Assembly (NCBI GenBank): GCA_016793065.1
Contig: JAEULV010000115.1
Span: forward strand, 1 to 45,237
Length of the DNA stretch: 45,237 nt
DNA from: Hyphomicrobiaceae bacterium
GTDB taxonomy: Bacteria > Pseudomonadota > Alphaproteobacteria > Rhizobiales > Ancalomicrobiaceae
Direction: 5' to 3'
Below are positions 24,299 to 45,237 of this stretch, in pieces. The notes under the pieces are model-generated. The model did not search any database and had not been told where the DNA came from. It saw nothing but the letters and a program-made list of their open reading frames with translations. Numbering within the stretch: position 1 is the stretch's first letter; the number at the start of each line of letters is the position of its first letter. The position numbers and the translations under genes are program-made.

Positions 24299-24340
24299 AC
24301 ACAAAAACTCCCGGAGCTGAGCTCACGGGAGTTTTTGTGT
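24299..24340. terminator. Strong bidirectional intrinsic terminator
   Basis: ACACAAAAACTCCCG pairs perfectly with CGGGAGTTTTTGTGT: a 15-bp stem around a 12-base loop, with an A5/T5 block on each side, so it can terminate in both directions. On the minus strand it lies just 13 bp beyond the 3' end of the tRNA remnant at 24354, which is where a tRNA gene's own terminator is expected. It would also stop read-through from the yeh-type operon into the island. Confidence 0.85.
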
Positions 24341-24353
24341 GGTGTTTGGATTT

Positions 24354-24373
24354 TGGTTGCGGGGGCAGGATTT
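24354..24373 (-). other. Initiator tRNA (fMet) 3' end: island attachment core
   Basis: Read on the minus strand these 20 bases are AAATCCTGCCCCCGCAACCA. This is the end of the T-arm, the 3' acceptor strand and CCA of an alphaproteobacterial-type initiator tRNA. Beyond them the match to the T-loop breaks off, so no complete tRNA is here. Such a tail-only copy followed by a terminator is what integration into a tRNA gene leaves at one junction. The assignment to fMet rests on my memory of initiator tRNA ends (the ...CCCCCGCAACCA tail). Confidence 0.7.
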
Positions 24374-24520
24374 AATCTTAACTTGCGATCATCGCAACCG
24401 CGCCATTCTTTACTAAAATCACTCACGAACCGCAGTAAAAGCGGCCTATTTCGTACAGTTGCGTAGTAGCCCGATGACAAATACACACCGATAGAAACCA
24501 GTCTAAACGTTCACTCACCC

Positions 24521-24572: not shown

Positions 24573-24905
24573 ATGGCGAGGTGACACTCGACGACCCGTG
24601 TCGTCTCCTACCTTCGTGTCTCGACCGGCCGGCAGGCCGAGAGCAACCTGTCGATCCCCGACCAACGGCGCCAGATCGAGCGTTACTACGCGGCGCGTAG
24701 CTGGACGATCGTGGAGGACTATGTCGAGCCCGGCAGCAGCGCCACCGACGATCGCCGTCCGGCCCTCCAGGAGATGATTGATGCGGCGCTCCAGACTCCG
24801 CGTCCGAAGCAGTACGGGGCTTGGCTGCAACAAACAGCACGCATCCCGCACCCTCGCCACCAGAGACGCATCGAAATCAAGTCAGTTCGCAACATTTTTC
24901 GTTGA
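24573..24905 (+). pseudogene. Truncated serine recombinase (resolvase domain remnant)
   Basis: From 24591 the frame encodes a clear serine-recombinase N-terminus: TTRVVSYLRVSTGRQAESNL, with the catalytic Ser in YLRVS, then IPDQRRQIERYYAARSW and VEPGSSATDDRRPALQEMI. The only in-frame ATG (24573) is followed after three codons by TGA (24582-24584). After about 24800 the protein no longer resembles a resolvase, and the typical motif that follows (S-R-F/D) is missing. The gene is therefore dead at both ends, a relic of an earlier integrase at this junction. Confidence 0.75.
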
Positions 24906-24973: not shown

Positions 24974-26179
24974 ATGGAGCACTTTTCAATCATTCAGGCG
25001 CTCTGCCGAACGGCGATGGGCGCGCCAACGCCAGCGCTGCGCAAGCAGGTCGAGCGGCTAAGGGATGCTCTCGTCAAAGATGGTGAGGAAAAGCAAGCAG
25101 CGTCGCTCGCAGGGATTCTTGCCACGGCGGAGCGCTTGACGGAGGTGGCCCCGAGCCGAATCGAGCGCTCGCGAGCGAACCTTTCCGGCGAGACACTCGG
25201 TCGCAATACGCCGATTCCTGTCGATCGTGAAACGGCGGCCGCCTTGGCGGAGATCATCTTTCCGTCGGAGGTCGAGGGAACGGCCCCGCTCTTCAATTCG
25301 ACTGTGACGCAGGCCATTGAGACGATCGTCGATGAGTGGACCGATTTCGAGGCGCTCGCGACCGTCGATATCGTGCCGTCAAAGACGTGTTTGATTTACG
25401 GAGCGCCTGGCACGGGGAAAACTCGACTGGCCCTCTGGATTGCTCGCAAGCTGGATCTGCCCGTTGTTCTCGTAAAACTGGATGGCCTTGTTTCCTCATT
25501 TCTCGGAACGACGGCGCGCAATATTGGAAATCTTTTCGCATTCGCCAATCGCTATCGCTGCGTGCTTCTACTTGATGAGTTCGACGCGATTGCAAAAGTC
25601 CGTGACGATCCCCAGGAGGTCGGCGAGATCAAGCGCGTTGTGAATGCCCTTCTCCAAAATCTGGATGTTAGGCAAAACATAGGATTGACGATCGGCATTA
25701 CCAATCACTCGAAGCTGCTTGATCCGGCGGTCTGGCGCCGTTTTGAGGTCCAGCTTGAAATCCCAAAGCCCGATTTTGAGGTGCGGAAGGCGATCGCCGC
25801 CATGTTTATGCCGCCTGTATCGGCTCCCGACAGCCATCTACGCCTTATTGCGTGGTTCACTGAAGGCTCAACCGGAGCGGAGATCGAAGCGCTGGTGCGG
25901 ACATACAAGAAGGCCACCACGGTTCGCGAGGACGATCGCCGAGGATTGCTGGATACGCTCCGTCAGTTTGCGACTCTCAACGCGGCCCGTATTCAGAGTG
26001 AGCGTCGAACGCTGCTGTTCGATGATCCCGCCACTCTGTTCCGGGCCATGCGTGACGACCCCATTCTCGCATTTTCAATGGCCGACATCGGCGAAATCGC
26101 AGGGCGGGATAAATCGACTGTAAGCCGTCAACTCGGTCGACAAGCCAGTAAAGCCGATGGGGGCGTGAATCATGGCTAG
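24974..26179 (+). CDS. ietA: IetA-like AAA+ ATPase of an IetAS defence pair
   Basis: A 401-residue AAA+ ATPase. Walker A GAPGTGKT is at residues 143-150, Walker B LLLDEFDAI at about 198-206, sensor 1 LTIGITNHSKLL, and the arginine pair in PAVWRRFEVQLE acts as the likely finger. The first 100 residues are helical. The last 30 residues (ADIGEIAGRDKSTVSRQLGR, near 370-390) look like a helix-turn-helix. The stop overlaps the start of a subtilisin-like protease gene by 8 bp, the arrangement of ietA-ietS. IetAS was first described on an Agrobacterium Ti plasmid as a plasmid-maintenance system and later listed among anti-phage systems. The ATPase probably gates the protease. Codon use is more AT-tolerant than in the chromosome to the left. 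Confidence 0.85.
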   Translation: MEHFSIIQALCRTAMGAPTPALRKQVERLRDALVKDGEEKQAASLAGILATAERLTEVAPSRIERSRANLSGETLGRNTPIPVDRETAAALAEIIFPSEVEGTAPLFNSTVTQAIETIVDEWTDFEALATVDIVPSKTCLIYGAPGTGKTRLALWIARKLDLPVVLVKLDGLVSSFLGTTARNIGNLFAFANRYRCVLLLDEFDAIAKVRDDPQEVGEIKRVVNALLQNLDVRQNIGLTIGITNHSKLLDPAVWRRFEVQLEIPKPDFEVRKAIAAMFMPPVSAPDSHLRLIAWFTEGSTGAEIEALVRTYKKATTVREDDRRGLLDTLRQFATLNAARIQSERRTLLFDDPATLFRAMRDDPILAFSMADIGEIAGRDKSTVSRQLGRQASKADGGVNHG

Positions 26180-28673
26180 CCCGATCCAGATCGTCCTCAA
26201 TCCGGACAATTATGAGGAAGCCCGAGAGGCAGGCGGCGGAGGCGGTCGCAAGGACTTCTTTGCCCACCGCGATCGGGAATTTGGCGCCCATAAGGCAGCT
26301 CTGATCGAGCAAATCGACACTATTTCCGGGGTTCTTTCGGCGCAAGCGCAGGGACCGATCGGCTACGTCAAGGTCATCCTTAAACGAGATGCCTGGGCAA
26401 AGAGCCATCGGCCGGTTGGGGCGCTTTTCCGCAGCGACCGGGCGCCTCTAGTCGGGGGTGGAGATCTCGGTGTGATGCTTGTCGAAGGCCGCCCGTCGGC
26501 ATTGGCGCAGGTGAAAGCTGAAATCGCCAAAGCCGAAACGCAAACCAGAATGCGTTACGACGAGAAAAAGAGGAAGGAGGTACCGAACCCTTCGGCGCAA
26601 AAGAGCGAGACCGGAGCAATCGACCGAATCGAACTCTATGGCGCTTCCGACAAGCGCAGCTTTTCAGTCGAAGAGGCTGTTGCATGGCTGGCCAATCCGA
26701 TGACGGGAAGCGGGTATCAGGTCGAATTGTTCGACGTATTACCACCGCGTGCCGAATGGGATCGCCTCGACCCCGCGCGCAGACGTCTGGTCGAGTCCTT
26801 CGTTGCCGGCTTCAATGCCCTTGAACAAAGTCTATCAGTGGAGCGTCTGCCTAACTGGCGACAGCGGCTCCCAATGCTTTCCGTGCGTCTGGATCGAGCC
26901 GGAGATGGCGCCGTCCTACGGCTGACGAGCGTATCATCGAAGGAGCGCCGTGAGCTTGCGCCGTTCGACCCGAACGTTCAGCATCACAGCCGTTTGCTGG
27001 CTTTCTTAGACAAGCATCCCTTAGTCCGGCGGATCGAGTTGCCCGGCATCGTGGTGCATTCTGCTCGCCCGGCAACGCCGAGCCGCGCTCGACCAGATCA
27101 CGCGACTATGCCAGTTCGCGATAGCCGCAGAACCCATCCGAGGCTGGGTATCATCGATGGCGGCATAAGCTCGGCCTTGTCTGACTGGGTCATCGATCGA
27201 TGGGGCGTGCTTGCTGAAGAAGACATGGATCTTTCCCACGGCACGTTCATTGGCGGCCTTGCCGTCGCTGGAGCCGGTATCAATGGCGCGGGGACTTGCC
27301 CCGAACCCGACGGAGCGGAACTGGTTGACGTAGCTGTCTTCCCAAATGAGCAGAAGGCCGGTGCCTTCGCATCCTACTATTCGGGCGGCCTTCCGCAGTT
27401 TTTCGATGAAATGGATGCGGCCGTCGCAGATGCGCGGGCGCGGCATGGCGTGCGTGTCTTCAATATGAGTCTGAACATCCTTCAGCCCGCCGCGCCCGAT
27501 CGTTACAGCCCACATGCGGTCCGGCTCGATCAGATTGCCGAGGAAAATAATGCTGTCGTGTTCATTTCCGCCGGCAACATCCAACCTCAAGACCTTCGCC
27601 CGGAGTGGCCGGTCGATGCGGCAGCGGCCCTTTCCAATCTTGCACTTGCGAGAAACGACGGACTCCTGACGCCAGCGGAGAGTGCAAGAAATGTTGCTGT
27701 TGCTGCACTGAATCCACCAGGGCACAGCGGTTGCGTGCCTTTCGCCCCGGCCCGTTTCAGTCGTCGGGGGCCTGGGCTTAGGTCCGGCGGGAAACCCGAC
27801 CTTGCCCATATCGGAGGAGCGGGTACGCAGCATGCGACGCTCGGGCACGGCCTTTTCTCTATTCTTCCGGATGGAACAGTAATCGACGGTTGCGGCACCA
27901 GTTACGCCTCGCCTTTGGTCGCCAAGACGGCAGCGGTCCTCGATCATGCCATAGAAGGCGAGGTCTCTCGTGAAACCCTCATAGGTTTGTTGGTCCACCA
28001 CGCTGAGATTCCAGAACCTTTGGGTTCAAAGATGCTGGCACCGGTGGCACGGCACCTTGTCGGCTTTGGAATGCCACCATCTGCTGAACGCATTCTGGAG
28101 ACAGGCGATCATTCCATTACCCTGGTCTTCGCCTCACGTATCCAGCACGGCCAGCAGATCAATTTCCGGTTCCCATGGCCGGCATCTTTGGTTGGGCCTG
28201 GCGGCAAATGTCGAGGGCGGGCAAAGCTCACGCTCGTATCTACGCCGCCGCTGGACGCTCGGTTTGGTTCCGAGTTCGTCCGCGTAAACGTGAACGCTGT
28301 TCTGCAACAAGAGCAGGATGAAGGCAAATGGAAGGGCCGACTTGATCCGCTTTACCTCCCGTCTTCGCGAGAATCGCCAGCGGTCGAGGCGGAGCTAATC
28401 GAACATGACCTGAAATGGAGTCCGGTAAAGGTCCACGCCAAGACCTTCCCGCAGGGAGTTGGGCCTTCGTCGAACTGGCGACTATTTGTTGAGTATCTGA
28501 CCCGCGCTGGAGAAGTAATGCCCGAGGGCGGCGTCCCCTTCACAGCCATTCTAACGATCAGCGATCCAGAGGCAGAAAAGCCAGTCTTCAACGACATGCG
28601 CCAAAGCCTTCAGGCGATTGGCACACAGATCGCTGACATTCGGACGGCAGCGCGAATCACGCCGCGCGTCTAG
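26172..28673 (+). CDS. ietS: IetS-like subtilisin-family serine protease
   Basis: An 833-residue cytoplasmic S8-family peptidase without signal peptide. The catalytic residues are all present: Asp329 in LGIIDGGIS, His356 in DLSHGTFIGG, oxyanion Asn469 in FISAGNIQ and Ser577 in GCGTSYASPL. About 320 residues precede the protease domain and 230 follow it. These flanks are large for a plain subtilisin and are expected to bind the ATPase or sense a target. In IetAS the protease is the presumed effector, released when infection or plasmid loss disturbs the pair. The start is an ATG inside the end of ietA (8-bp overlap), and TATAGGAG after its stop serves the next small gene. Confidence 0.87.
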   Translation: MASPIQIVLNPDNYEEAREAGGGGGRKDFFAHRDREFGAHKAALIEQIDTISGVLSAQAQGPIGYVKVILKRDAWAKSHRPVGALFRSDRAPLVGGGDLGVMLVEGRPSALAQVKAEIAKAETQTRMRYDEKKRKEVPNPSAQKSETGAIDRIELYGASDKRSFSVEEAVAWLANPMTGSGYQVELFDVLPPRAEWDRLDPARRRLVESFVAGFNALEQSLSVERLPNWRQRLPMLSVRLDRAGDGAVLRLTSVSSKERRELAPFDPNVQHHSRLLAFLDKHPLVRRIELPGIVVHSARPATPSRARPDHATMPVRDSRRTHPRLGIIDGGISSALSDWVIDRWGVLAEEDMDLSHGTFIGGLAVAGAGINGAGTCPEPDGAELVDVAVFPNEQKAGAFASYYSGGLPQFFDEMDAAVADARARHGVRVFNMSLNILQPAAPDRYSPHAVRLDQIAEENNAVVFISAGNIQPQDLRPEWPVDAAAALSNLALARNDGLLTPAESARNVAVAALNPPGHSGCVPFAPARFSRRGPGLRSGGKPDLAHIGGAGTQHATLGHGLFSILPDGTVIDGCGTSYASPLVAKTAAVLDHAIEGEVSRETLIGLLVHHAEIPEPLGSKMLAPVARHLVGFGMPPSAERILETGDHSITLVFASRIQHGQQINFRFPWPASLVGPGGKCRGRAKLTLVSTPPLDARFGSEFVRVNVNAVLQQEQDEGKWKGRLDPLYLPSSRESPAVEAELIEHDLKWSPVKVHAKTFPQGVGPSSNWRLFVEYLTRAGEVMPEGGVPFTAILTISDPEAEKPVFNDMRQSLQAIGTQIADIRTAARITPRV

Positions 28674-28695
28674 CGGCCCGTATAGGAGAAATCAC

Positions 28696-28914
28696 TTGGC
28701 TCGGTCGAAAGAGAAACGAATTGGTTATCTACCAGGAAAACTGACGGATGGGACTGAGGCCGTGGTCAGCGTTTCCAAGATTGGTCGCAATTACAGGATT
28801 GGATGTGGTTTCAAAGATCATCTCTGCCATCCGTCCGTCCGAGATATTGAAGGCGTAAGGCGTGAGGCATTGCTCGTCTTCGACGTACGCGATGCAACTT
28901 ATCAGTCAATTTAG
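28696..28914 (+). CDS. Small hypothetical protein (TTG start)
   Basis: A 72-residue protein. I choose a TTG at 28696 because AGGAGAA (28684-28690) lies five bases upstream and no ATG is available; the frame also opens upstream inside ietS, but that is out of phase with the real gene. The sequence, KEKRIGYLPGKLTDGTEAVV then YRIGCGFKDHLCHPSVRDIE, looks like a small beta-rich domain. It has two cysteines and no signal or membrane segment. I do not recognise it. It starts 22 bp after ietS on the same strand and is followed 64 bp later by the TIR gene, so it may be a third member of the defence operon. Confidence 0.55.
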   Translation: MARSKEKRIGYLPGKLTDGTEAVVSVSKIGRNYRIGCGFKDHLCHPSVRDIEGVRREALLVFDVRDATYQSI

Positions 28915-28978
28915 ATGAGCCACAAAGCGCTTCAATAAGACTCGCGAGCTGGCGAAGTGGTGAAGGAGAAGAGAAAGC

Positions 28979-29692
28979 ATGGCTAGATGCACCGCACCAT
29001 CGAGGGGCCATCGTTCATCGGCAGCGGCAGCCAACTGTCCTGCATGCGGGAGCCGCTATGGCCGCTACAGCGGGTATGGCAGCGGCTATAGCAGCTCCGG
29101 TTCATATTCGTCTCCTTCGTACTTCTCCTCTGGTAGCAACGGTCGGAGCAGCGGCGGGTCGGGGCGCCGCACCTCAAAGCCTCGCTGGTCAGGAGCCGGT
29201 TCGGCGGTGTGGTATACGTCTGAACAAGTGCAGGCGCTTACGCCGGTTCGAGAAAACGTGGAGAACCTAGCGGTCTCGCAGCCTGACCTTCGAGACGTGT
29301 TTCTCTGTCACGCTTGGGATGACAGGCAGGGCTCCGCCAAAGAACTGCATGATCTGCTCGAAGCACGCGGTGTCCGCGTGTGGTTCAGCGAGAAGGACCT
29401 TGGCCTCGGGGTGCCGATGATGCGGGCGATCGATAAGGGCTTGGTGAACTCGCGCGTCGGCATCGTGTTGGTAACTCCGGCTATGTTGCGACGCCTCCCG
29501 GCAGAAGGCATCGCAGACAAAGAGCTTTCAGCGCTCCTCAGACGTGAGCGGCTCGTTCCAGTTGTTCACGGAACGACCTATGAGGAGCTTGAGCAGGTCA
29601 GCCTCCTGCTAGCCTCCCGAGCCGGGCTGAGCACTGCCGAGGAGTCGATGGCGGAAGTCGCCACCAAAATCGCCGAACTGGTCGCCATTTAG
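28979..29692 (+). CDS. TIR-domain protein with Cys/His cluster and Tyr-Ser-Gly-rich linker
   Basis: A 237-residue protein in three parts. Residues 1-24 hold a candidate zinc site (Cys4, His11, Cys20 and Cys23; NCPACG). Residues 27-63 are low-complexity, made almost only of Ser, Gly and six Tyr (for example YGRYSGYGSGYSSSGS). Residues 106-195 form a TIR domain: DVFLCHAWDD, ELHDLLEARGVRVWFSEKD, LVNSRVGIVLVTPAML, and Glu182 in ADKELSALL at the position of the catalytic Glu of NAD-cleaving TIRs. Bacterial TIR proteins usually act as effectors that destroy NAD during phage infection. It lies on the same strand as ietAS. No membrane segment is seen. NADase activity is inferred from the fold and this one Glu. 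Confidence 0.8.
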   Translation: MARCTAPSRGHRSSAAAANCPACGSRYGRYSGYGSGYSSSGSYSSPSYFSSGSNGRSSGGSGRRTSKPRWSGAGSAVWYTSEQVQALTPVRENVENLAVSQPDLRDVFLCHAWDDRQGSAKELHDLLEARGVRVWFSEKDLGLGVPMMRAIDKGLVNSRVGIVLVTPAMLRRLPAEGIADKELSALLRRERLVPVVHGTTYEELEQVSLLLASRAGLSTAEESMAEVATKIAELVAI

Positions 29693-30074: not shown

Positions 30075-31021
30075 ATGTCGAGAGCGCTGTCGGTCGATCT
30101 TCGGGTTCGGGTTCTTGGAGCTGTGGCGGCGGGCGCGACGCATCGCGAAGCAGCCGAGCGTTTTGGGGTCAGTGCCGCGAGCGTCAGTCGCTGGCGCAAG
30201 CGGGAGCGCGAACAGGGTGATCCACGTCCCGGGAGGCTTGGCGGCGACCGGCGTTCGGATCGGATAGAAGCGCACCATGACGCAGTGATGGCCGCGCTCG
30301 GCCCGGGCCGGGACGCCACCATTGAGGAAGTCCGCGCGAGCCTGGCGGAGCAGGGTCTCGCGTTCGGCTTCGGCACGATCCAGCGTTTCTTCGCGCGTCA
30401 CGCCATCACGCGCAAAAAAAGACCGCGCACGCCACCGAGCAGGACCGCCCCGACGTCCTGATCCGGCGCGAAGAATGGTTCGAGGATCAGCTCGACCTCG
30501 ATCCCGACCGGCTGGTGTTCATCGACGAGACCTGGGCCTCGACCAACATGGCGCGCCGCCATGGGCGCTGCCGGCGCGGCGAGCGGCTTCGGGTCGGCGT
30601 GCCACACGGCCACTGGAAGACGACGACCTTCGTGGGCGCGCTGACCCTTCGCGGCTTCGTCGCCCCCTTCGTGCTGGATGGGCCGATCAACCGGGACGCC
30701 TTCCAGACCTATGTCGAAAAGGTGCTGATCCCCGAACTCAGACCCGGCGACATCGTCGTCATGGACAACCTGTCAAGCCACAAGGGGCCGCGCGTGCGCG
30801 AGATGATCGAGGCGGCGGGCGCGGACCTGCGCTACCTCCCGCCCTACAGCCCGGACTTCAACCCTATCGAGAACGCCTTTGCCAAGCTCAAGGCGCTGTT
30901 GAGAAAAGCCGCCGAACGAACCGTCGGCGGCCTCTGGGATGCCATCGGACGCATCCTCGACCTCTTCCCGCCCAACGAGTGCGCCAACTACTTCAGCGCC
31001 GCAGGATACGATGCAACCTGA
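30075..31021 (+). CDS. IS630-family transposase (programmed -1 frameshift)
   Basis: Two frames together make a complete transposase. The first (30075-30461) encodes the helix-turn-helix DNA-binding half: GATHREAAERFGVSAASVSR. The second, ending at 31021, encodes the DDE catalytic half: Asp in VFIDETWAS, Asp in VVMDNLSSHK and Glu in NPIENAFAKLK. They overlap at a run of seven A residues (30414-30420), where a -1 slip joins ...ITRKK to KTAHATEQDR and restores one protein of about 315 residues. This is the usual expression mode in part of the IS630 family. The stop lies inside the right inverted repeat. The element looks intact and possibly active. Confidence 0.88.
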
Positions 31022-31573: not shown

Positions 31574-33145
31574 TTGGCGAGCCGGAAACTTCATGACGAC
31601 GATCGATCACAGCAGCCGGAACGTCCTGTTCGGGCTGCCGAATACGTCCGCATGTCGACGGACCATCAGAAGTATTCGACGGAAAACCAAGCCGACGCGA
31701 TCAGGCGATATGCAGAAGAACGTGGAATCGAGATTGTCAGAACCTATGCTGATGAAGGCAAAAGCGGTCTTAGCGTTGATGGCCGCGATGCGTTCAAGAA
31801 CCTGATTGCAGACGTTTCGGAAGGACGTAGCGATTTCGAGGTGATCCTTGTCTATGACGTGAGCCGCTGGGGCCGCTTTCAGGACACGGACGAGAGTGCC
31901 TATTACGAATATATCTGCAAGCGCGCCGGCGTTCGCGTCCAATACTGTGCCGAGCAGTTCGAGAACGACGGCAGCCCGATCGCCGCCATCATCAAGGGCG
32001 TGAAGAGCGCCATGGCCGGCGAATATAGCCGCGAGCTTTCGGTCAAGGTCTTCGCCGGTCAGGGGCGGTTGATCGAAAAGGGCTATCGCCAGGGCGGCCC
32101 GGCGGGCTTTGGTCTGCGGCGCACGCTGATCGACGAACACGGAACGATCAAAGGATACCTTGGGCGCGGGGAGCAGAAGAGCCTCCAGACCGATCGCGTG
32201 ATCCTAACGCCGGGGCCGGACGAAGAGGTCGAGCTGGTCCGAGAAATCTATCGGGCTTTCGTCCATGAAGGACACAGCGAAAGCGAGATTGCCGCCGATC
32301 TCAACATGCGGGGTCTCACGACCGATCTTGACCGCCCCTGGACCAGAGGCACCGTCCACCAACTGCTGATCAACGAGAAATATGCCGGCGACAATGTCTG
32401 GAACCGCCGCTCCTTCAAGCTGAAGAAGAAGCGTGTCCGCAACACGCCCGACAAGTGGATCAGGTCCAAGGGGGCATTTGTGGCCATTGTCGAGCGGGAG
32501 CTGTTCGATGCGGCCAGAACGATCATCAATGCGCGCTCGTTCCGCCTGAGCGACGAAGAAATGCTTCTGGCCCTGCGGGAACTCTACCAGAAGCAAGGAC
32601 TCCTGTCCGGCATCGTCATTGATGAATGCGACGATCTGCCGTCAAGCAGCGCCTACGGCTCGCGCTTCGGTAGCCTGCTCCGAGCCTACAGCCTTGTCGG
32701 CTTCAAGCCGGAACGGGACTATCGCTATGTCGAAATCAACCGCCACCTGCGAACGCTCCACCCCGGCATCGTGCGGGATGTTCTCGATGGGCTGCGCACG
32801 GCGGGCAGCGATGCCTGGCAGGATCTCGAAACCGATCGGATGATCGTCAACGGCGAATTCAGCGTGTCGGTCGTTATCGCGCGCTGCTTCCAGACGCCGA
32901 CCGGACTCCTGCGCTGGAATATCCGCTTCGACACTTCCCTCATGCCCGATATCACCGTCGTCGTCCGTATGGACAACCTCAATCGTGCGCCGCTCGACTA
33001 TTATCTGTTTCCGCGCATCGACAGGCTCTCCGAGAAGGTGCGGCTGGCGGAAGACAATGCCCTCGGTCTCGATGCGTACCGCTTCGACGATCTCGACCTT
33101 CTCTACGACATCGCCAGACCCATCCCTGTTTGCGAGGCCGCCTGA
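31574..33145 (+). CDS. Large serine recombinase
   Basis: A 523-residue recombinase that starts at a TTG (31574) with GGAAGGG about seven bases upstream; no ATG fits. The resolvase domain is at about residues 20-170: catalytic Ser in EYVRMSTDHQ, then ADEGKSGLSVDGRDAF and VYDVSRWGRFQDTDES. A Recombinase domain follows (AGFGLRRTLI, then SEIAADLNMRGL and WTRGTVHQLLINEKYAGD). The last 190 residues do not show the usual four-cysteine zinc ribbon and are unlike typical phage integrases. The stop overlaps the following ParB-like gene by one base. This gene is the likely integrase of the inner element; its regulator on the other strand is broken by the IS. Confidence 0.9.
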   Translation: MASRKLHDDDRSQQPERPVRAAEYVRMSTDHQKYSTENQADAIRRYAEERGIEIVRTYADEGKSGLSVDGRDAFKNLIADVSEGRSDFEVILVYDVSRWGRFQDTDESAYYEYICKRAGVRVQYCAEQFENDGSPIAAIIKGVKSAMAGEYSRELSVKVFAGQGRLIEKGYRQGGPAGFGLRRTLIDEHGTIKGYLGRGEQKSLQTDRVILTPGPDEEVELVREIYRAFVHEGHSESEIAADLNMRGLTTDLDRPWTRGTVHQLLINEKYAGDNVWNRRSFKLKKKRVRNTPDKWIRSKGAFVAIVERELFDAARTIINARSFRLSDEEMLLALRELYQKQGLLSGIVIDECDDLPSSSAYGSRFGSLLRAYSLVGFKPERDYRYVEINRHLRTLHPGIVRDVLDGLRTAGSDAWQDLETDRMIVNGEFSVSVVIARCFQTPTGLLRWNIRFDTSLMPDITVVVRMDNLNRAPLDYYLFPRIDRLSEKVRLAEDNALGLDAYRFDDLDLLYDIARPIPVCEAA

Positions 33146-34047
33146 TGACCGCTGTTCGTCCCAACCGGATCGAAATGATCCCGATTTCCCGCATTACCGT
33201 CCTGAACCCTCGTGCTCGCAACAAGCGCCAGCACCGCGAGATCGTCAATAATATTGAGGCTATTGGCCTGAAGCGCCCCATCACGGTCAGCCGTCATGAT
33301 GGTCCCAGCGGGACGCGGTACGATCTTGTCTGCGGCGAAGGTCGACTGGAAGCCTTCCAGATGCTCGGCCAGACCGAAATCCCCGCCGTGGTGATCGAAG
33401 CGAACGAAAACGAATGTCTGGTGATGAGCCTCGTCGAGAATATCGCGAGACGGACACAGCGCCCCATCGATCTCATGCGGGAAATTGGCGCCCTCCGATC
33501 GCGCGGCTTCAACGACGCTGCTATCGCCAGGAAAATCGGCGTCGGCGCATCCTGGGTCAACATGGTCGCCTCGCTGCTGGAACACGGCGAAGAGCGGCTG
33601 GTGGCGGCGGTCGAGACAGGGTTGATCCCGATCACCTTGGCGATGGAGATTTCCAAGGCGGAATCGGAAGAGGCGCAGAACCTGCTGCTCGACGCCTACG
33701 AGACCGGCCAGCTTCGCGGAAAGAAGCTCGCCGCTGTGCGGCGTATGCTCGAAATGCGTATGCAGAGCCAGCGCAAGGGAGCGTTGCCAGTCGTGCGCCT
33801 GGGCCGGAAGGGCTTCAGCCGTCGTCTGACCGCCAACGAACTTATGCAGATCTATCAACGTGAGGCTGAGAAACAGCGGCTTCTGGTGAAGAAGTCGGAC
33901 TTTACCCAGACGCGGCTCCTCTTCATCGTGGAGGCGCTGAAGGAACTGCTCGGCGATGAGAGCTTCGTGAACCTGCTCAGGGCCGAGGGGCTGGCATCCA
34001 TGCCGAAGGCGCTCTCCATGCGGATTTGGGGAGAGAAGAATGACTGA
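33145..34047 (+). CDS. ParB/RepB-like partition-type protein 1
   Basis: A 300-residue protein starting at an ATG that shares a base with the recombinase stop. A ParB N-terminal (CTPase-fold) domain occupies about residues 10-110: ISRITVLNPRARNKRQHREI, then LVCGEGRLEAFQMLGQTEIP, a variant of the GERR box, and LVENIARRTQRPIDLM. A helix-turn-helix follows near 125-150 (FNDAAIARKIGVGASWVNMV). Chromosomal ParB spreads from a centromere-like site; here the link to a recombinase suggests a role in maintaining or processing the mobile element, or in controlling the recombinase. No ParA gene is adjacent. Confidence 0.85.
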   Translation: MTAVRPNRIEMIPISRITVLNPRARNKRQHREIVNNIEAIGLKRPITVSRHDGPSGTRYDLVCGEGRLEAFQMLGQTEIPAVVIEANENECLVMSLVENIARRTQRPIDLMREIGALRSRGFNDAAIARKIGVGASWVNMVASLLEHGEERLVAAVETGLIPITLAMEISKAESEEAQNLLLDAYETGQLRGKKLAAVRRMLEMRMQSQRKGALPVVRLGRKGFSRRLTANELMQIYQREAEKQRLLVKKSDFTQTRLLFIVEALKELLGDESFVNLLRAEGLASMPKALSMRIWGEKND

Positions 34048-34981
34048 CTGGTCCGAACATCACCACGAAAACGATGGCAGCATCCATCTGGCTTTCGACC
34101 AGAGTTTCGTGACTATTCCGGTTTCGGCGATCGTTGCCCTTAAGACATTGCCGGAAGGCGCGCGGGAAAGCCGGAGTTATGCGCAGGTTCTCAGCTCGAT
34201 CAAGGCGATCGGCCTTGTCGAAGCGCCTGTCGTCATGGCCGACACCGCAAGCGCCAGCACATGGTTTCTGCTCGACGGCCACCTCCGCCTAGAGGCGTTG
34301 AAGGAACTCGGCATCACGGAAGTCGAATGCCTCCTCGCGACCGACGACGACACCTACACTTACAACAAGCGGGTGAACCGCATTCCGCCAATCCAGGAGC
34401 ACCGGATGATCGTTCGCGCCATGGAGCGCGGTGTTTCAGCCACAGAGATCGCCGAAGCCTTGAATCTTGAGGTTCAGTCCGTTCTGAGGCGGTTTCGATT
34501 GTTAGAGGGGATCAGCCCCGAGGCTGGCGAAATGCTGAAAGACACGCCCTGCTCGATGAAGGTGTTCGACATTCTGCGCCAATTGTCTGCCGTCAGGCAG
34601 ATCGAGGCGGCCGACCTGATGATCGGCCAAAACAACTTCTCGATCATGTTCGCGCGGGCGATCCGCGCCGCCACGCCTGAGAACCAGCTTGTCACCGCGA
34701 AGAAAGGACGAGGTGCGGGTACACCCACTCCATCGGGTCAGCAGATTGCCCGCATGGAGCGGGAACTGGCTGCACTCCAGACGCAGGTCAAATCTGTCGA
34801 CGAAACCTATGGCATCGACAATCTGCACCTGACGGTGGCGCGCGGGTACATTGCCAAGCTCTTAGCCAACAGCCGGATCGTCCGTTGGCTGACGAACCGC
34901 CAGCAGGACTATCTCGGCGAGTTTCAGAAGATCGCGGAAATCGACTCGCTTGGCCCTATCGCAGACGAGCCAAGCGCCTGA
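34040..34981 (+). CDS. RepB-like partition-type protein 2
   Basis: A 313-residue protein overlapping the preceding gene by 8 bp. The ParB-like N-terminal domain shows FVTIPVSAIVALKTLPEG and LLDGHLRLEALKELGITEVE; the helix-turn-helix is VSATEIAEALNLEVQSVLRR near residues 133-153. The C-terminal half (LKDTPCSMKVFDILRQLSAV, MIGQNNFSIMFARAIRAATP) matches the C-terminal domain of alphaproteobacterial RepB plasmid partition proteins. Two ParB-like proteins in tandem behind a recombinase form a recurring arrangement in alphaproteobacterial mobile elements, as far as I recall; its mechanism is not established. Confidence 0.85.
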   Translation: MTDWSEHHHENDGSIHLAFDQSFVTIPVSAIVALKTLPEGARESRSYAQVLSSIKAIGLVEAPVVMADTASASTWFLLDGHLRLEALKELGITEVECLLATDDDTYTYNKRVNRIPPIQEHRMIVRAMERGVSATEIAEALNLEVQSVLRRFRLLEGISPEAGEMLKDTPCSMKVFDILRQLSAVRQIEAADLMIGQNNFSIMFARAIRAATPENQLVTAKKGRGAGTPTPSGQQIARMERELAALQTQVKSVDETYGIDNLHLTVARGYIAKLLANSRIVRWLTNRQQDYLGEFQKIAEIDSLGPIADEPSA

Positions 34982-40971: not shown

Positions 40972-42191
40972 TCAGCCTCCGTACGGTTCGAGCACGAGAT
41001 CGCGCGTGACGATGACGCGGACGGGGAAGCCCGGTCGGACCGTCAGTGTCGGCGCTATGTTGATCTGGCGGTTGACGATCTGTTGCCCTGCCTGGCTGAT
41101 GCTCTCGCCCGCGCCCTGGCGCAGAGCTCGAACGATATCGCTCTCATCACCCGATGATCCCGTCTGCGCGCCGATGCTTAGCAGCGTCGATAGAGCAGCC
41201 GCCTTGAACAGCTCGCCCCAGTGATAATCGACGCCATCCTCGAGGCCGGCATACCCTTCTGCGTCCGCGCCGGGCTGGCGCTCAAGCACGATCGAGCGGC
41301 CGTTCGGGAAGATCAGCCGGTTCCAGACAAGCAGGACGCGGCGCTGCCCGAAGCCGACGCCGTTGTCGTACTGGCCGATGATGCGCGTGCCCTGCGGAAC
41401 GAGCAGAATCTTGCCGGTCGGGCTGTCGTAAATGTTCTCCGTCACCTGGGCGGTGATCTGGCCGGGAAGATCAGAGCGAATGCCGGTGATGAGGGCCGCC
41501 GCAATGAAGGCGCCGGCCTGCAGCACATTCGCCGACGCCGGCGCGGCCACACGGTCGGGCGAGACCGTGCGCTTGTCCGGCGCCTGGTTGAGAAATGCGT
41601 GCTGGCGGTCCTGTGCGGTCGGCGTCGCCGGTTGCGGCGCCAGGCCAAGGTTTGTGAGATCGGGCGTGGGTGCGATGGTCGGCGTTGCGGTCGCCGCGGG
41701 CTGCGTCGAGACGCTGCGCGTCTCGGTCGAAGCGAACAGTCGGGCCGTCCGGGCCGATTCCAGCTCCTGAAGCCGCCGTTGCTCCTCGGCGCTGATGCCG
41801 GGATTGGGCGTCGCGATCGATGGCGGCGGCACGGCATTCTGTGCGTTGAGGATCGGCCGACCCAGATCGCCGGGTAACGGCGGGCCGAGCACCGGCCCGG
41901 TATAGTCACGCGGCAGGCTGTTGAGGCCGTCCGGGGTCGCACGATTGTCGGTCGCATAAAGCTCCTCGTTGCCCTTGCGCCCGCCCTGAATTTGCAGGGC
42001 GTAGATCAGCGCACCGCCGATCCCGACGCTGGCGACCAGGCCGAGACCGGCCAGAACCTTGCGCGATAGCCGCGTCACGCGCGGCGGTTCCGGGCGCAGA
42101 CGCATCGGCGCGGCCGGCCCGCCGGTAAGCGGCAGGGCGCCGTCTTCGCTGGACGGCTCCGGACCTTTCTCCTTTCCGGGTTCGATCTCGC

Positions 42192-42195
<4 letters not shown>
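40972..42195 (-). CDS. trbI: Conjugal transfer protein TrbI (VirB10-like)
   Basis: A 407-residue protein starting MSEIEPGKEKGPEP. There is a cytoplasmic Pro-rich start, one membrane helix near residues 45-65 (LAGLGLVASVGIGGALIYAL), a long Pro/Ala/Gln-rich periplasmic stalk, and the C-terminal TrbI/VirB10 beta-barrel domain (GTRIIGQYDNGVGFGQRRVL, then WNRLIFPNGRSIVLERQPGA and VDYHWGELFKAAAL). It spans inner to outer membrane and transmits energy in the type IV secretion core complex. The start overlaps the trbG stop by 4 bp. Confidence 0.93.
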
Positions 42196-43213
<1,018 letters not shown>

Positions 43214-43217
<4 letters not shown>

Positions 43218-43903
43218 TGTCCAAGCTCCTTCGACCAGTTGATGGCGTTGACGTAGATTCCGAGCGGATTGGCTCGAAGCTTTTCGGCGTCGCGCGGCGT
43301 TTGCACGACAATGGTGAGGATGGCGGACCAGCGCTCGGTCGCGGCGAGCGATCCGTCCTGATAGCGGCGCTCGATCCAGGCCACGCGGAATGAGTCAGGG
43401 GAGGCCCTGATGACGCTCGACACCTCAATGGCGACCTGTTGCTTGCCGACCTTGGTGAAGGGGTCGTTGGCGCGGGCATAGTCATTGAGGGCGAGCGCGC
43501 CGCCCTGTGTGGTGAACTCGTAGGCGCGCAGCCAATTCTGCCGCACGATGATCGCGTCGGCCGGGATCGAGCGAACCTGCTCGATGAAGCGGGCAAGATG
43601 GAACGCGATCTGCGGATCGGACGGCCGATAGTCGGCGATGGCGGGGGCGATCGCCTGCGCCTGGCCGAGCTTGTCGACCTGCACAACCCAGGGAACGATG
43701 GTGCCGCTGGCCGACTGCCAGACGAGGCCGCCCGACAGGCCGGCCGAAAGGGCCAGGCAGCCGAAGGCCATATAACGCCAGTTGCGAGCCTGCACGCGGG
43801 CGGAACCGATCCGGTCGTCCCAGACCTGTGCGGCGCGTTGATAGGGCGTTTCGGGTTGTGGTGCTTTCCCGTAGTGGGTCGATGGTCGTTTGAAGAAGTT
43901 CAT
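43214..43903 (-). CDS. trbF: Conjugal transfer protein TrbF (VirB8-like)
   Basis: A 229-residue inner-membrane protein: cytoplasmic N-terminus (MNFFKRPSTHYGKAPQPETP), one membrane helix near residues 45-67 (YMAFGCLALSAGLSGGLVW), then the VirB8-type periplasmic domain (IVPWVVQVDKLGQAQAIAPA, FHLARFIEQVRSIPADAIIV). It nucleates the secretion channel. It starts two bases after the trbL stop. Confidence 0.92.
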
Positions 43904-43905
43904 AG

Positions 43906-45237
43906 TCAGTCGCTTTCGGAGAGGTTGACGGAAGAGCCGCCGCCATGGCTGTCGCCGGATTTGACGGCATGGGCGGCTGCCTGGACGCCGTGGGCGAGTT
44001 GCTGCGAGCGTTTCATGCGCTTGGCCCAGGCAGGCGGACCGTCGCGGGTGGCAGCCGCGGTTGCAGCGGGCGCGGCTTCCGTCGCGCCGCCGTCACTGGA
44101 TGCGCCGCCGGAGATCTCGGTCGCGGCACGGGAGCCGGCGTCGAAGCTGGACTTGAGGCTGTCGGACGCACGGGACACGGCGCGCTTCAGCGGCGAGGCA
44201 GCGGCCTTCGCGCCGGTGCTCGCCACATTGCCGAGGCCGGATGCAATGCCCGACGCGCCCGACTGACCGGCTGCGCCGAGGCTGTAGGCGGTGGAAGCGC
44301 CACCAGCGACGGCAGCGCCGCCGCGCGCAGCGGCGGCCGCGCCACTGGCGAGGGCCGCGCCGCCAGAGGCGACGGTGCCGACTGACGCAGCGCCTGCCGC
44401 GACCATGCCGCCGGCTGCGACGCCAACACCAGCCGCGGCGCCAGCGCCGAGCTGCGGCCCGCCCGAGACGAGGCCGTTGGCGATGCCGGGTCCGAAGATG
44501 CCGAGACCGAGAAGCGAGAGCGCGGCGAGCACGATCGCCATAGCGTCGTCGATCGTCGGGGTCTGGCCGCCGAAGCCTTGCGTGAACTGCGAGAACAAGG
44601 TGGAGCCGATGCCGATGATGACGGCGAGCACCAGCACCTTGATGCCGGAGGAAATGACGTTGCCCAGCACGCGCTCGGCCATGAAGGCGGATTTGCCGAA
44701 GAGGCCGAACGGGATCAGCACGAAGCCGGCGAGCGTCGTCAGCTTAAACTCGATCAAGGTGACGAAGAGCTGGACCGCGAGGATGAAGAAGGCGAGCAGG
44801 ATCAGCGCCCAGGCGAACAGCAGGCAGGCGATCTGGATGAAGTTCTCGAAGAAGGCGACCCAGCCCATCAGGTTCGAGATGGATTCGAGCAGCGGCCGAC
44901 CGGCATCGAGGCCGGTCTGTGCGACCTTGCCGGGACGCAGGAGATCGGTGACGGAGAAGCCGGTCCCCGAAGCTTTCAGACCGAGACCGGCGAAGCTCTC
45001 GAAGACGATGCGGGCGAGATTGTTCCAGTTGGAGATCAGATAGGCGAAGACGCCGACGAACAGCGTCTTCTTCACGAGGCGGGCGACGATGTCGTCATCG
45101 GCGCCCCAGCTCCAGAACAGGGCGGCCAGCGTCACATCGATGACGATGAGCGTCGTGGCGATGAAGGCGACTTCCCCGCCGAGCAGGCCAAAGCCTGAAT
45201 CGATGTAGCGGGTGAAGACGCCCAGGAAGTTGTCGAT
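43906..45237 (-). CDS. trbL: Conjugal transfer protein TrbL (VirB6-like), N-terminus outside the window
   Basis: The minus-strand frame is open to the right edge (first residues in view: IDNFLGVFTRYIDSGFGLLG), so only about 443 codons are visible and the start is missing by few residues judging from TrbL N-termini. There are six or so membrane helices (for example KKTLFVGVFAYLISNW, IQIACLLFAWALILLAFFIL, VLVLAVIIGIGSTLF). A very Ala/Gly-rich C-terminal tail of about 190 residues follows, ending GDSHGGGSSVNLSESD. TrbL/VirB6 forms part of the inner-membrane channel. trbE, trbJ and the other genes are expected to the right. Confidence 0.92.
   Translation of the reverse strand: MDNFLGVFTRYIDSGFGLLGGEVAFIATTLIVIDVTLAALFWSWGADDDIVARLVKKTLFVGVFAYLISNWNNLARIVFESFAGLGLKASGTGFSVTDLLRPGKVAQTGLDAGRPLLESISNLMGWVAFFENFIQIACLLFAWALILLAFFILAVQLFVTLIEFKLTTLAGFVLIPFGLFGKSAFMAERVLGNVISSGIKVLVLAVIIGIGSTLFSQFTQGFGGQTPTIDDAMAIVLAALSLLGLGIFGPGIANGLVSGGPQLGAGAAAGVGVAAGGMVAAGAASVGTVASGGAALASGAAAAARGGAAVAGGASTAYSLGAAGQSGASGIASGLGNVASTGAKAAASPLKRAVSRASDSLKSSFDAGSRAATEISGGASSDGGATEAAPAATAAATRDGPPAWAKRMKRSQQLAHGVQAAAHAVKSGDSHGGGSSVNLSESD

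Follow-up and report, generated by a model that had tools for sequence, protein, structure and literature searches.

The window, by which we mean the whole analysed stretch of 45,237 nucleotides from a Hyphomicrobiaceae bacterium, carries at 24299-24340 a hairpin, listed without a strand, which may be the terminator of a displaced tRNA or the remnant of an integrase gene's 3' end. The letters described in the initial annotation were confirmed exactly: the arms 24299-24313 and 24326-24340 pair over all 15 bp of a perfect stem, 13 bp (24341-24353) separate the hairpin from a tRNA tail, and this tail, TGGTTGCGGGGGCAGGATTT at 24354-24373, reads AAATCCTGCCCCCGCAACCA on the minus strand and is by sequence identical to initiator tRNA 3' ends. 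The same 20 bases close genes called tRNA-Met(cat) by ARAGORN in other genomes, which we take to be initiator tRNAs from their C1:A72 mismatch and 5' CGCGGGG. Within the tail, the outer bases at 24354-24364 form a core, TGGTTGCGGGG, shared with the initiator tRNA 3' end (CCCCGCAACCA, minus strand), and the sequences place the crossover within or beside this core. Comparison of loci assigned the adjoining 24365-24392 on the plus strand (GCAGGATTTAATCTTAACTTGCGATCAT, with the arm ATCTTWACTTGC) to the element half of the attachment site, and comparison of frames assigned 24356-24466, also on the plus strand, to a large serine integrase, as its severed C-terminal tail of 36 codons and a TAG stop (VAGAGFNLNLRSSQPRHSLLKSLTNRSKSGLFRTVA). 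Positions 24354-24466 hold a partial tRNA gene at one junction, and element sequence begins there. Just inside the element, 24597-24800 (plus strand) encodes the broken N-terminal part of a further serine recombinase, with 72% identity to an Aureimonas plasmid (L038).

Directly inside the island, at 24974-29692, PADLOC reported the defence genes IetA (E 2.6e-156) and IetS (7.8e-296) and a ThsB-like TIR protein (3.3e-121). The frame at 30076-31020 presumably resembles an IS630-like transposase, and no family match was obtained for the ORF tried there. At 31574-34981, a serine recombinase is followed by two RepB/ParB-like plasmid partition genes. This recombinase (31574-33145) was considered as the integrase of the junction and rejected, as it shares 26% identity over 302 residues with the integrase of locus L069 described below and its frame also meets no tRNA core. 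Elsewhere in the same genome, a tRNA-Arg(acg) gene has another serine recombinase (G000:C58:20211-21895) some 650 bp away. The conjugation genes trbI, trbG (CagX), trbF (VirB8) and trbL occupy 40972-45135 on the minus strand, where the contig ends inside trbL; TrbE was not found in the assembly.

A 42-base piece around the core (24349-24390) matches Rhizobium megaplasmids, and the pattern GGTTGCGGGGGCAGGATYTAATC was found in 31 stretches of named genomes and, within the order, in 5 of 397 genomes including the window's own. Loci with the attachment pattern come from Rhizobium, Shinella, Mesorhizobium, Labrys, Paracoccus and others. Eight elements from other Alphaproteobacteria are similar to the window on the right side of TGGTTG only: in ungapped 20-base bins, identity of these closest elements was 0-12/20 (chance level) left of the core and 20/20 in the first bin on its right, where the search pattern imposes the value; the second bin gave 13-20/20. 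From this one-sided resemblance, the spot is a site-specific element junction as far as sequence comparison goes, and likely the left edge of a mobile island inserted into an initiator tRNA gene. The tail-only junction of a tRNA-targeted integration, as proposed in the initial annotation, is backed by this element-side match, which stops at the tRNA core in all eight elements, and by flanking sequence in other hosts, as the left flank of the tail in Shinella sp. SUS2 (G404) equals (59/59) the flank of an intact initiator tRNA from a different contig and the corresponding flanks in Labrys (G403) agree in part (50/60). Such a match within one genome was seen in two of the nine genomes compared, the seven mismatches being explained in part by other copies that carry integrase flanks.

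The proposal that all 20 bases are simply the tail of the host tRNA was not supported. Only the outer 11 (TGGTTGCGGGG) need to be shared with the host, and the next nine are most likely those of the element, since GCAGGAT stands beside a tRNA with a different T stem in seven distinct loci (L040, L045, L052=L073, L054, L062, L063 and L072) and the window's family, with 20 initiator tRNA places found across 11 genomes, has CAGGATTT at none of them. For the window, whose assembly is without the host's own initiator tRNA, we infer that the inner nine bases most likely have the same origin.

The frame GTT GCG GGG is open from the core and was followed in 39 places, two of which (L058 and L063) run off the sequence and one of which was counted twice (L052 and L073). 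Among the 37 loci with a stop in reach, 28 have an LFxxAA-like end, a motif formulated after inspection of the data, seven end in ..FRL, since a complete tRNA comes next, and two (L036 and L055) are broken. The other two frames stop sooner, after 5 to 7 and after 14 to 49 codons. When seven 36-codon tails were compared with the site excluded and the stop codon removed, 214 of 504 codon pairs were identical in frame vs 150/504 and 143/504 in the other frames. In several tails (L042, L044, L056, L060, L070 and similar), the att-like VKMVAG.G recurs in frame at intervals of about 17 codons, which looks like a duplication of sites. An integrase lies directly left of the tail in 14 of the 39 places and was not found within up to 2.2 kb in the other 25, six of which offer less than 400 bases of left flank; in the window, it is absent within 2.2 kb left of the tail. 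Seven integrase genes with LFxxAA-like tails (L037, L061, L069 and L165-L168) are uncut, with a frame continuous across the core that is parted at integrated elements. The severed tails L048 and L049 equal those, 33 residues long, of L037 and L061, both uncut integrases, and no integrase was found left of these two junctions, L048 having just 24 bases there. By sequence, the splitting of an integrase gene at its own attP is thus found in relatives, where the uncut genes could also be tandem elements, which look identical. The L069 integrase contains Resolvase, Recombinase and zinc-ribbon domains. The window itself holds only the tail, and 24356-24466 is likely the severed C-terminus of the large serine integrase that the element itself encoded.

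When the integrase beside the L069 junction was used as query, 161 of 297 genomes gave some match, mostly weak, and the 30 best loci, each the best place of its genome, were fetched. In 20 of these 30, the integrase frame runs antisense through the 3' half of the initiator tRNA, stops at the anticodon and ends in ..FRL; the other ten lie outside the initiator tRNA frame, nine with other ends and one (L117) in another tRNA-Met. In this last locus (L117:872-947), the related frame enters an elongator-type tRNA-Met and ends GPAGLEPATKRL, an equal arrangement at another tRNA. The overlap of integrase frame and tRNA is seen in L099, where the order 23S, 5S, tRNA was confirmed by Rfam; L157 from Ketogulonicigenium has the same layout, but its integrase frame is broken, and L096 contains stops inside the integrase. 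Rfam confirmed the tRNA in nine of the 11 integrase loci given and detected none in L121 and L078, which are one place; ARAGORN likewise called no tRNA in L121. By reading, the tRNA itself is broken past the anticodon in L107 and L121. Initiator tRNA genes in L050, L107, L116 and L121 cease to match just past the anticodon, and these breaks suggest, at the level of sequence, a second class of elements with a crossover at the anticodon.

Both ends of an element were on one contig in only two of 13 records. In Shinella granuli (G402), the partner end lies 85.5 kb off on the same contig and strand (tail C25:182, integrase C25:85730), with an integrase frame of 567 residues running into the tRNA; in Shinella daejeonensis (G407), the distance is 80.4 kb, again on the same contig and strand (tail C35:80498(-), integrase C35:52(-)). 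This agrees with the arrangement predicted in the initial annotation. The far junction has the complete tRNA in G402 and also, up to the contig end that cuts off its 5' end, in G407. The integrases at the partner ends are serine recombinases.

The LFxxAA-like ends, the seven uncut genes and the ..FRL ends of the fetched loci together place the attachment site, core plus element half with its arm, inside the integrase frame of the relatives, with the last codons being replaced. In the uncut genes, the frame crosses the core into a tail with an LFxxAA-like end, and at integrated right ends it crosses the same core into the antisense tRNA, stops at the anticodon and ends GFEPATFRL-like. Integration would trade the last 30 to 80 residues of the integrase for some ten encoded by the host tRNA, and the native tail would return on excision. 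We are accordingly fairly confident, by analogy with these loci, that the window represents a left junction at which the integrase 3' end was cut off by recombination with the initiator tRNA 3' end, so that the C-terminus would have been exchanged. To the right of the window, the trb-bearing island is then predicted to close with a serine integrase gene on the plus strand whose frame enters a complete initiator tRNA on the minus strand, and this tRNA is probably the final gene of an rRNA operon.

In the window's own assembly, this partner end was searched for by several routes. ARAGORN and Rfam detected no tRNA gene in the window, and the only exact copy of the 20-mer in the 4.08-Mb assembly is that at the junction, the next-best place having three mismatches. 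The assembly contains 37 tRNA places; ARAGORN, run on 30 of them, named two tRNA-Met, neither of which bears the 3' end of the junction. With up to three mismatches allowed, a 31-base pattern from inside the initiator tRNA was matched in 11 of 15 family genomes and not in the window's own, and no L069-like integrase was found there (best identity 28%). Initiator tRNA genes of the family have a hairpin at close range downstream, and at least those of L080 and L094 follow 23S and 5S. rRNA operons are commonly missing from assemblies, and an intact tRNA as the last gene of such an operon would explain why it was not assembled; 5S rRNA was not found in the assembly by a search that also misses it in three of 14 control genomes. 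For an island-free relative, the SWIM gene next to the junction gave one weak match in 60 relatives, and a match was confirmed in none of the named genomes.

The hairpin was previously taken for the original terminator of the tRNA, a claim that lacks support in these comparisons. For the 65 bases preceding the tail on its left, the folding energy is -32.3 kcal/mol, which was equalled by two of 200 random stretches from the same 3-kb locus. The left flank of the window reached at best 27/60 against 19 family initiator tRNA flanks from 11 genomes, which is no match, and 37 bp of the hairpin are 92% identical to a hairpin inside the L099 integrase gene. In five other genomes, the window hairpin lies inside integrase 3' ends (two) or at an unrelated terminator (three), and among the window's closest comparators L035, L036, L041, L047 and L068 lack any hairpin within 65 bases to the left of the core. 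As it occurs in both settings, the hairpin proves neither a host terminator nor an integrase remnant.

An ordinary tRNA island, made by a tyrosine integrase with all 20 bases and the hairpin belonging to the host and no integrase being split, would account for the exact tRNA bases and the spacing of the hairpin, and tRNA islands are usually products of tyrosine integrases according to the excerpt of one source (PMC3218068). The coding tail conserved past the core, the element-specific T-stem bases behind the core in other hosts and the serine recombinases at the partner ends make this very improbable. We also regard it as unlikely, though with a greater chance, that the window is an orphan end without a linked intact tRNA, produced by a deletion or rearrangement or by insertion into a secondary site. 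A junction without linked tRNA, which the initial annotation would have counted against its proposal, does seem to exist in the megaplasmid records W01 and W02 from Rhizobium (L035 and L036), in which the tail is present and a matching tRNA is absent from the record. Moreover, the tails of Pseudaminobacter (G405) and G399 stand without a near tRNA partner, tail and tRNA of Mesorhizobium L-8-3 are 1.46 Mb apart, and the missing right end of the window, its deviating flank and the comparators without hairpin would fit as well. On the other hand, a strong hairpin lies 13 bp from the tail in the window, and initiator tRNAs of the family have one nearby too; the tail frame is still open, unlike the broken L036 and L055, and the frequent loss of rRNA operons from assemblies, with 5S not found here, may account for the absent tRNA.

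A different matter is whether the exchange of the tail has any function. That attP just overlaps the 3' end of the gene, with idle last residues and no switch, has close to an even chance in our estimate: tail lengths vary from 33 to 82 residues, and ends encoded by the tRNA are evidently tolerated, with ..FRL in 79 of 120 among the database proteins listed. Against a passive by-product speak the final LFxxAA, kept in most loci despite a variable middle, and the higher identity in frame than out of frame. A functional exchange of the integrase C-terminus may bias the enzyme to integration before insertion and to stability afterwards, and we propose only tentatively a family of alphaproteobacterial elements in which the start tRNA of the host would rewrite this C-terminus as a switch setting the direction of recombination.

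Recombinases that disrupt their own gene were found only in archaea according to the accessible part of a review (PMC8371274). The archaeal 'suicidal' tyrosine integrases of the SSV1, pTN3 and pT26-2 type likewise carry attP inside the integrase gene, which is split on integration, often at a tRNA; they are described there as tyrosine recombinases that lose the catalytic part, whereas the elements here have serine recombinase domains, are cut at the extreme C-terminus and would keep the catalytic part of a bacterial integrase with a new C-terminus from the tRNA. Serine integrases at tRNA genes, called rare, are known from phiRSM1 (tRNA-Ser) and Mycobacterium AICEs (tRNA-Leu), with other tRNAs and, in the portion available, without mention of a split integrase frame (PMC3218068). 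The mitomycin C-induced Paracoccus prophage phiPam-6 also combines a serine recombinase with a tRNA-Met in an alphaproteobacterium, but its 17-bp repeat (CCCTCCTCCGCTACCAT), as given in the part seen, differs from the initiator tRNA end here (PMC3925955). Mesorhizobium ICEs and IMEs are conjugative islands at tRNA genes, tRNA-Met included, and unlike here mostly with tyrosine integrases in the extract consulted (PMC8627217). Within the open-licence literature, as far as its texts were accessible, no paper was recognised as describing integrase elements at this target. A free phage with an uncut gene was also sought: of 553 phage records matching the recombinase, one did so over 80% of the length, at 25.6% identity. 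One viral contig holds the site; with 19,427 bp, it has the length of the Brucella pseudogrignonensis contig of L048.

A bacterial serine integrase thus appears to swap its C-terminus with a tRNA gene of the host, which often closes an rRNA operon. This arrangement would explain why many records of a 'recombinase family protein' finish in antisense tRNA sequence, and ..GAGFEPATFRL and ..LFxxAA may serve as simple marks for integrated and uncut forms, respectively. If both ends of the protein act differently, these elements would control directionality without a separate factor.
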